From contig CANQVR010000003.1 in assembly GCA_947627375.1 (NCBI GenBank), forward strand, positions 1 to 40,802: DNA of 40,802 nucleotides, read 5' to 3'. Below are positions 25,646 through 40,802 of the stretch, piece by piece. Source of the stretch: an uncultured Bacilli bacterium (GTDB lineage Bacteria; Bacillota_I; Bacilli_A; RF39; UBA660). A program made the position numbers and the translations under genes. The notes beneath the pieces are model-generated. The model was not told where the DNA came from. It made no database searches and worked only from the letters and a program-made list of their open reading frames with translations. Position 1 is the first letter of the stretch. Every line of letters starts with the position of its first letter.

Positions 25646-25667
25646 ATCTATGCTTGTTTATATTTCT

Positions 25668-25697
25668 ATGACAAATAATTTGTCATGGCGGAAGGAG
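25668..25697 (+). promoter_or_regulatory. rpmE leader hairpin, possible L31-type ribosomal protein leader
   Basis: ATGACAAA-TAA-TTTGTCAT perfect 8-bp stem (25668-25686) immediately before ggcGGAAGGAG. Confidence 0.55.
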
Positions 25698-39030: not shown

Positions 39031-40413
39031 ATGTCAGATAAAGAATTATATTTAAATTATGAAAAATATTTAGATAAAGAAGTTGTATTAGAAGGATGGA
39101 TAAGAAATCATAGAAAACAAAAAGAATTTGGATTTATTTCGTTTTCTGATGGAACTTATTTTCCACAGATTCAAATTGTTTATGATAATAAGTTAGATAA
39201 TTTTTCTACTATTACAAAATTTCATATAGGTAGTTCAATAAGAGTAAGAGGAATTGTGGTTAAATCACCTAAGGAAAATCAAGCTTTTGAGATACATGCT
39301 TTAGAAATAGTTTTATTAGGAGATTGTCCTGAAGATTATCCGATTCAACCTAAAAGACATTCTCGTGAATTTCTAAGAGAACAAGCTTATCTTAGACCTA
39401 GAACTAATTTGTTTCAAGCAGTTTTTAAAGTAAGAAGTAAAGCAGCTTTTGCAATTCATGAATATTTTCAAAATAAAGATTTTGTTTATCTTCATGCTCC
39501 TTTGATTACTGCGAGTGATTGTGAAGGAGCAGGAGAGATGTTTCATGTTACTAGTTTTGATCTAGAAAATATTCCAAAAGATGAAAATGGTAATGTTGAT
39601 TATAGTAAAGATTTCTTTGGTAAAATGGCTTCTCTAACTGTATCTGGACAACTTCAAGCAGAAACTTTTGCTTTAGCTTATAAAAATGTTTATACTTTTG
39701 GACCTACATTTAGAGCAGAGAACTCTAATACTAAAACACATGCTTCTGAATTTTGGATGATCGAGCCTGAAATGGCATTTTGTGATTTAGAAAAAGATAT
39801 GGATGTTATGGAAGATATGTTAAAGTATATAGTTAATTATGTACTTAAAAATTGTAAAGAAGAACTTAAATTCTTAAATAATTTTGTAGAAAAAGGTTTA
39901 ATAGAGAAACTTGAAAAATTAGTTAATTCTAAAGCAGTGAGAATTACTCATCATGAAGCGATAGAAATTTTAAAAAATTCTGGAAAAGACTTCGAATTCA
40001 CGCCTGAGTTTTCTGAAGATTTAGCCCGTGAACATGAAAAGTATTTAACTGAAGAAAAATATCATTGTCCAGTATTTGTTTATGATTGGCCTAAAGATAT
40101 TAAAGCATTTTATATGAGACTTAATGATGATTTAGAAACAGTTGGAGCAGTAGATTTACTTGTACCAGGTTCAGGTGAATTAATGGGAGGTTCACAAAGA
40201 GAAGAAAGATATGATGTTTTGATGCATCGTATGGAAGAAATGAATGTTTCACGTGATGAACTTTCTTGGTATTTAAAACTTAGAGAATATGGTGGATGTA
40301 TTCATTCAGGATTTGGTATGGGATTTGAAAGATTAATTATGTATTTAACTGGAGTTGAAAATATAAGAGATGTTATACCATATCCAAGAACTCCAAAGTC
40401 TTGTGATTTTTAA
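39031..40413 (+). CDS. asnS: Asparaginyl-tRNA synthetase
   Basis: VLEGWIRNHRKQKEFGFISFSDG, FGPTFRAENSNTKTHASEFWMIEPEMAF, GFGMGFERLIMYLTGVENIRDVIPYPRTPKSCDF. Confidence 0.96.
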   Translation: MSDKELYLNYEKYLDKEVVLEGWIRNHRKQKEFGFISFSDGTYFPQIQIVYDNKLDNFSTITKFHIGSSIRVRGIVVKSPKENQAFEIHALEIVLLGDCPEDYPIQPKRHSREFLREQAYLRPRTNLFQAVFKVRSKAAFAIHEYFQNKDFVYLHAPLITASDCEGAGEMFHVTSFDLENIPKDENGNVDYSKDFFGKMASLTVSGQLQAETFALAYKNVYTFGPTFRAENSNTKTHASEFWMIEPEMAFCDLEKDMDVMEDMLKYIVNYVLKNCKEELKFLNNFVEKGLIEKLEKLVNSKAVRITHHEAIEILKNSGKDFEFTPEFSEDLAREHEKYLTEEKYHCPVFVYDWPKDIKAFYMRLNDDLETVGAVDLLVPGSGELMGGSQREERYDVLMHRMEEMNVSRDELSWYLKLREYGGCIHSGFGMGFERLIMYLTGVENIRDVIPYPRTPKSCDF

Positions 40414-40423
40414 AATAATTATA

Positions 40424-40452
40424 TTGAAAAAAATATAAATTAATGATATGAT
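40424..40452 (+). promoter_or_regulatory. Sigma-A promoter downstream of asnS
   Basis: TTGAAA (40424-40429), 17-bp spacer, TATGAT (40447-40452). Confidence 0.72.
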
Positions 40453-40458
40453 TAATTT

Positions 40459-40554
40459 ATCAAGGAAACTTGAATAATATATTGTAAGAAGACTCAAAGT
40501 CAGGTTGAGCACTTACCATTTAGTATGCACTCAAGATGATTGAGTGCTCTTTTA
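40459..40554 (+). ncRNA. Candidate structured small RNA
   Basis: Promoter upstream; TCAAG-GAAA-CTTGA hairpin, GACT-caa-AGTC hairpin, GTAAG/CTTAC pairing, terminator hairpin; no convincing ORF. Confidence 0.55.
40527..40554 (+). terminator. Intrinsic terminator of the candidate small RNA
   Basis: GCACTCAA-gatga-TTGAGTGC followed by TCTTTTATT. Confidence 0.78.
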
Positions 40555-40595
40555 TTAATAATTTAATTAAATACTATCAATAAAAGATTATTAGT

Positions 40596-40640
40596 AAAAA
40601 AGATAGCTATTATTTTTTGTTTAATAATAACTATCTTTTT
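40596..40640. terminator. Bidirectional terminator
   Basis: AAAAAAGATAGCTATTATT...AATAATAACTATCTTTTT. Confidence 0.7.
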
Positions 40641-40802
40641 ATATTATTTTAATTTAACAATTTGATTTGTATTGTCTTTTCGATCTTTTAATACTTCTTT
40701 CCAATTAATTGGGACAACATCTTTTAAGAGAGTGTAAAAAACTTTGTGTAAAGTTACCATCTATGGTAATAAAGATATTAGAGACTAGAGAATCAGTCTC
40801 TT

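Follow-up and report, generated by a model that had tools for sequence, protein, structure and literature searches.

A probable type I toxin-antitoxin family in gut Bacilli of the RF39 type, with an orphan antitoxin copy downstream of asnS

The window, a stretch of 40,802 nucleotides from an uncultured Bacilli bacterium, carries close to its right end a short RNA gene. In all likelihood it belongs, as the antitoxin, to a type I toxin-antitoxin family found in gut Bacilli of the RF39 type, and it is present here as a copy orphaned by loss of its toxin. The best reading is that the family is a new one of a known kind, apparently undescribed; a search of the open-licence literature for RF39 and type I toxin-antitoxin jointly found no paper, which is not proof of absence. 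Type I systems combine a hydrophobic peptide gene with a non-coding RNA antisense to its mRNA. Such a gene, with translation signals, is found in the family, while the window itself holds only a remnant. The RNA has its own promoter, and its antisense relation to the peptide mRNA is read from convergent overlap, 5' UTR complementarity and covariation.

The RNA and its elements

The elements of the RNA are listed below. R1 is a covariance model built from 45 sequences; the window is one of these training sequences, and its match has an E-value of 1.3e-7.

40424-40452, + strand: putative antitoxin promoter, TTGAAA-N17-TATGAT by sequence
40424-40429, + strand: -35 TTGAAA, with a 17-nt spacer to the -10 TATGAT at 40447-40452
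40458-40555, + strand: orphan member of the family, a putative antitoxin RNA about 95 nt in length (R1 match 40458-40554, 61.7 bits)
40460-40473, + strand: helix 1, the 5' hairpin TCAAG-GAAA-CTTGA, near-invariant across the family
40474-40488, + strand: linker, the decayed counterpart of ATAAAATAAAAAAGG seen in toxin-bearing relatives
40484-40516, + strand: hairpin 2, with outer arms GTAAG (40484-40488) and CTTAC (40512-40516), and CTCAA (40493-40497) paired with TTGAG (40505-40509)
40527-40555, + strand: intrinsic terminator of the RNA, GCACTCAA..TTGAGTGC followed by CTCTTTTATT, with an 8-bp hairpin at 40527-40547

The folding energy of the window RNA is moderately unusual (z -2.15). As 6/200 shuffles fold equally well, folding alone is no proof of the RNA. 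The RNA at 40458-40555 is judged to be real because R1 finds homologues and because family members show covariation in helices 2 and 3. The original prediction described a standalone RNA, about 95 nt long, that has a promoter and a terminator of its own and for which a simple cis-leader role is unlikely, and this part of it stands; promoter, helices and terminator each lie at, or at most one base from, the positions it gave. It missed the convergent hydrophobic ORF and the multi-copy antisense nature of the RNA. Its inner GACT/AGTC hairpin is not conserved in the family, and the conserved hairpin 2 is formed by CTCAA and TTGAG.

Two further pairings near the terminator, TTGAG/CTCAA and GAGCACT/AGTGCTC, are present in the sequence and had been interpreted as mutually exclusive folds. 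They resemble attenuation, as would be expected if the RNA were a cis-acting leader or riboswitch whose gene lies past the contig end. They arise from the complementary words CTCAA/TTGAG, which recur in hairpin 2, in the terminator and in the 5' UTR of the toxin mRNA; this repetition looks like antisense target recognition, and no switch need be involved. The absence of a + strand ORF downstream in the window was correctly noted, and + strand genes downstream of other copies vary from copy to copy; the partner conserved in intact relatives is a convergent small ORF on the - strand. Rfam offers no leader or riboswitch for the RNA. Its matches to the window RNA at gathering and permissive thresholds (E up to 10) are chance matches only, in agreement with the earlier remark that no known family was recognised, and in six loci with relatives of the RNA it finds tRNAs and weak chance matches elsewhere, with nothing for the RNA. 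A leader or riboswitch has next to no probability, and the RNA is treated below as an antitoxin. Elsewhere in the window, an L31-Firmicutes ribosomal protein leader at 25666-25697 is the only Rfam match at the gathering threshold.

Distribution and structure of the RNA family

R1 finds the RNA in 282/386 genomes of the window genome's family, often with at least nine copies each. The class-wide sample has it in 25 genomes of this family and in one other genome, G552. The latter belongs to another family of the class and has a single complete unit of group D (contig C32, L269; the groups are given below), owing either to horizontal transfer or to a misbinned contig. More than 100 stretches were returned by a pattern scan of a bacterial genome collection, nearly all of them titled as MAGs of gut-type Bacilli, 'Tenericutes' or Erysipelotrichaceae. 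The titles include Candidatus Coprosoma and Ventrenecus, and Coprosoma is assigned to order RF39 (PMC8035907). From these relatives, the genome of the window is taken to be RF39 too. A DNA-level search of that genome and its relatives finds numerous repeats of the 5' part, made up of the promoter and the TCAAGGAAACTTG hairpin. No match to the RNA was found in the viral contigs, phages and plasmids searched.

Three helices are common to the family. Helix 1 is swapped for other short stems, TCAAGG-TTT-CCTTGA and ATGTA-GAT-TACAT, in two sister genomes (loci L044 and L038). Hairpin 2 and the terminator differ strongly among copies with their pairing preserved: two-sided changes occur in 7/8 pairs of helix 2 and in 9/11 pairs of helix 3 (the terminator). 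In the family alignment 90% of cells are paired, compared with 24-41% for slid structures, and 141 two-sided cells are observed compared with 38 after shuffling. The compensatory changes that the original prediction asked for in homologues are extensive in helices 2 and 3.

Complete modules also exist in tandem arrays of two or three, about 320-390 bp apart and sometimes of mixed groups (G001 contig C10, L038; G002 contig C44, L039; G027 contig C16, L041; and L163). The antitoxin RNA starts downstream of a same-strand tRNA gene, mostly by 75-91 nt, in 57/200 units (e.g., L002, L023, L088, and L138); random points in the same loci have this spacing in 2.7% of cases. Note that this and the other unit counts come from a pattern that uses helix 1 and the linker A-tract as its anchors, so that divergent copies are under-counted. 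The tRNA genes are those for Leu, Thr, Arg, Met, Ala, Phe, Glu, Lys, and His, and a hairpin CTCGAA..TTCGAG is often found between the tRNA gene and the RNA. The modules may travel to, or become fixed behind, tRNA genes.

The convergent peptide gene

Facing the RNA, on the opposite strand, a hydrophobic ORF with a start codon and a Shine-Dalgarno sequence is found in 143/200 units; the first set of units had such an ORF in 113/162. It is typically 24-30 codons long, and its stop lies at the antitoxin RNA terminator. The encoded peptide opens with a short charged segment and continues as a single, very hydrophobic stretch (the 17-aa hydropathy maximum has a mean of 3.47). The intact copy on contig C10 of the window genome, for example, encodes MKKKDLLISFLILIIILLIVSLMILSIKK. 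Synonymous changes greatly outnumber non-synonymous ones (dN/dS 0.09-0.43), and by this measure the ORF is under purifying selection. The same excess indicates that it is very probably translated and useful. Five peptide groups (A-E) can be distinguished, each with matching RNA variants. Searches of Pfam, NCBIfam, PADLOC, and PHROGs gave no family above threshold for the peptides, whose toxicity is a prediction. About a quarter of the units, including the window, have no recognisable toxin.

Complementarity between the RNA and the toxin mRNA

Upstream of the Shine-Dalgarno sequence, the 5' UTR of the toxin mRNA repeats in mirrored form the words found in antitoxin hairpin 2. At one intact locus a repeat finder gives the mirrored words GGAACATTCAGTT/AACTGAATATTCC and GAATGTCTACC/GGTAGACACTC. 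RNAduplex over long stretches discriminated poorly: when unrestricted, it gave -25.9 kcal/mol for cognate and -23.0 kcal/mol for non-cognate pairs, a weak separation with cognate pairs at the 31st percentile. Pairing was scored instead as contiguous complementarity between the RNA loop or terminator arm and the toxin 5' UTR. By this score, cognate pairs have a mean of 19.1, compared with 14.0 +/- 2.5 for shuffled UTRs, and each antitoxin group pairs best with its own toxin group (five of five rows). In this test, the window RNA matches toxin 5' UTRs by a complementary word that forms the 5' arm of its terminator.

The two RNAs would also overlap at their 3' ends. The linker of toxin-bearing relatives is ATAAAATAAAAAAGG. 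Its complement on the toxin strand is a U-tract that comes after hairpin 2, and reversed hairpin 2 plus this U-tract would make up the terminator of the toxin mRNA. Mismatches in the linker A-tract amount to 0.08 in toxin-bearing units and 0.42 in orphans (p=0.003), whereas helix 1 is conserved alike in both (p=0.37). Better conservation of the tract where a toxin is present agrees with its proposed role in toxin termination. A terminator pattern scan of L035 did not report hairpin 2 on the toxin strand, and this step therefore rests on the conserved tract. The antitoxin terminator is without a T-run on the toxin side.

With up to a dozen copies per genome, inverted repeats at the locus ends, and clustering 75-91 nt behind tRNA genes, the unit has some features of a MITE-like selfish repeat, in which the promoter and terminator would be fortuitous. 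Copies within a genome are highly diverged, however, and not recent, and two sister genomes have units at shared positions. A bare repeat would not be expected to show selection on the ORF as coding sequence, RNA helices with compensatory changes, or group-specific matching. A selfish repeat is very improbable, and a functional pair of RNA and peptide is the preferred reading.

Promoters and LexA boxes

Most genomes of the family have a lexA gene, and boxes such as CGAACAAATGTTTG are found in the lexA promoters. A LexA matrix was derived from these promoters, independently of the toxins, and a score of 9 or more was counted as a match. It matches 62/137 toxin promoters, 2/135 antitoxin promoters and about 0.8/137 shuffled promoters, where counts such as 62/137 comprise non-independent events since units are related by descent. 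Boxes in toxin promoters are mostly found directly 5' of TATAAT, i.e., just upstream of the -10; the other 75/137 toxin promoters do not have one. The window's own genome has only five RAACNNNTGTTTG sites, of which one lies in the lexA promoter and another in that of the intact C10 toxin. From these boxes, SOS induction of many of the toxins should be expected.

Another motif, TGTTCGCTTGTTT, is found near the -35 in 31/137 toxin promoters, almost never alongside a LexA box; it is not enriched genome-wide. As for the antitoxin promoter, the -35 of the window copy lies within a short inverted repeat, TTATATT..AATATAA, as it does in part of the family. An inverted repeat with a stem of 7 or more covers the -35 in 25% of units, compared with 5% of shuffles. 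It is followed by T-runs (AAAACGTACTTGATAAAAGTGCGTTTTT), for example at L035:1130-1158 and at 40421-40441 in the window, and perhaps doubles as the terminator of the upstream gene.

No peptide matches a known toxin family, purifying selection suits any functional peptide, and hydrophobic peptides such as these could be non-toxic. They might be small regulatory membrane peptides, with the RNA acting as an ordinary cis-antisense repressor. This is unlikely, because the predicted SOS control and groups of RNA and peptide with matched words are odd for a housekeeping peptide, and many copies per genome, with the peptide frequently lost and the RNA retained, are typical of toxin-antitoxin systems. 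Toxin and antitoxin remain the preferred designations.

Loss of the toxin in the window

The surroundings of the window RNA are as follows.

39031-40413, + strand: asnS (asparagine--tRNA ligase; NF003037, 633 bits), unrelated upstream neighbour
40563-40586, - strand: remains of the 3' end of the toxin gene, the final codons reading.LLLIVFN-stop, by similarity to intact loci
40597-40640, - strand: terminator-like hairpin followed by a T-run, probably (orientation deduced) of the - strand gene that now adjoins the remnant
40653-40727, - strand: convergent gene truncated by the probable insertion sequence, with its 3' end present (..LLKDVVPINWKEVLKDRKDNTNQIVKLK-stop)
40727-40802, strand not assigned: contig edge, probably the end of an insertion sequence, with identical copies of 75-76 bp at several further contig ends

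DNA similarity to intact loci extends to about 40583 and then stops. About six C-terminal codons of the toxin are left, with neither a start codon nor a Shine-Dalgarno sequence upstream. The toxin being reduced to this remnant, the window copy is, by sequence comparison, an orphan antitoxin. The label 'transposase' for all of 40653-40802 was dropped, as the repeated part begins only at about 40727. The RNA does lie downstream of asnS, as originally described, but it is not tied to that gene: other copies are located elsewhere, and no RNA unit follows asnS in two congeneric genomes. An ancestral link between RNA and asnS was rejected on the ground that sister genomes are without the unit there.

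Five copies of the RNA exist in the window's own genome. Besides the window copy, contig C10 has an intact one, contig C7 has kept the toxin ORF and lost the leader, and contigs C48 and C63 have lost the toxin. There is about an even chance that the window RNA is a drifting relic without present function, which is compatible with its origin as an antitoxin. Its linker A-tract has decayed, its score of 61.7 bits is well below the 98 of the intact copy of the same genome, and the toxin-less copies on C48 and C63 show that it is not alone. On the other hand, the promoter, helix 1, the pairing of hairpin 2 and the terminator have all been preserved, and the terminator arm continues to match the toxin 5' UTRs of groups A and B.

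Comparison with known type I systems

The antisense RNAs of bsrG/SR4 and txpA/RatA in Bacillus subtilis overlap the 3' end of the toxin mRNA. The same arrangement is described for yonT/SR6 (PMC5848175), where the YonT toxin has 58 aa; the B. subtilis toxins are longer than the peptides described here. Compared with these systems, the present family adds an antitoxin mirroring the toxin 5' UTR and LexA boxes in many toxin promoters.

Fst/par (par of pAD1; RNA I/RNA II) likewise has convergent promoters, a short antitoxin RNA and a small membrane peptide, with complementarity at the 3' overlap and via repeated words reaching the toxin 5' UTR (PMC7472228). The repeated words here are mirrored hairpins, whereas those of par are the direct repeats DRa/DRb. 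A single bidirectional terminator is shared in par, and none is obvious here. LexA control, predicted here for many toxin promoters, is unmentioned in the passages on par considered here (PMC7472228). The Fst/Ldr motif PxxxG(C) and the conserved Trp are missing: P...G and W are each found in 1/143 peptides. Fst models in Pfam and NCBIfam gave no match to the peptides with E up to 10.

In Escherichia coli, tisB/istR-1 and dinQ/agrB likewise consist of a membrane toxin under LexA that is repressed by a small antisense RNA, the toxins of this type being SOS-induced peptides of 27-29 aa (PMC8309996). They belong to a different phylum and have no sequence relation to the present family in the libraries searched. 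Moreover, IstR-1 acts on the tisB standby site, whereas the RNA here is convergent and overlaps the toxin 3' end. Judged by its sequences, the family belongs to neither Fst/par nor tisB/istR-1, despite similar working.

Proposed mechanism and implications

Intact copies have two predicted promoters facing each other about 250 bp apart. One is predicted to produce the antitoxin RNA of roughly 95 nt, and the other the mRNA of a membrane-spanning peptide. The likely 3' end of the toxin mRNA is the reverse complement of hairpin 2 of the antitoxin, together with the U-tract; with this end, a perfect overlap of about 75 nt between the two RNAs would result. A second site of pairing would be the mirrored words in the toxin mRNA 5' UTR, to which both hairpin 2 and the 5' arm of the terminator are suited. 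Pairing should then block translation and mark the mRNA for decay, and the toxin would be neutralised. At the about 45% of copies with a LexA box, DNA damage would raise the toxin mRNA above the constitutive antitoxin. The orphan RNA of the window could act only in trans. It is a tentative and rather doubtful suggestion that the lineage as a whole has multi-copy LexA-controlled membrane toxins and that selection keeps orphan RNAs because they confer immunity in trans to same-group toxins, from their own genome or from other strains.

If the antitoxin reading is true, a very large uncultured group of gut bacteria has a type I family that is new to the protein and RNA libraries searched. The five groups of RNA and peptide would be a natural series for studies of antisense specificity, and the orphan copies would be material for studying how such modules decay. 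The LexA boxes predict that DNA damage turns on many small membrane toxins together in these tiny-genome gut symbionts, like TisB in E. coli.
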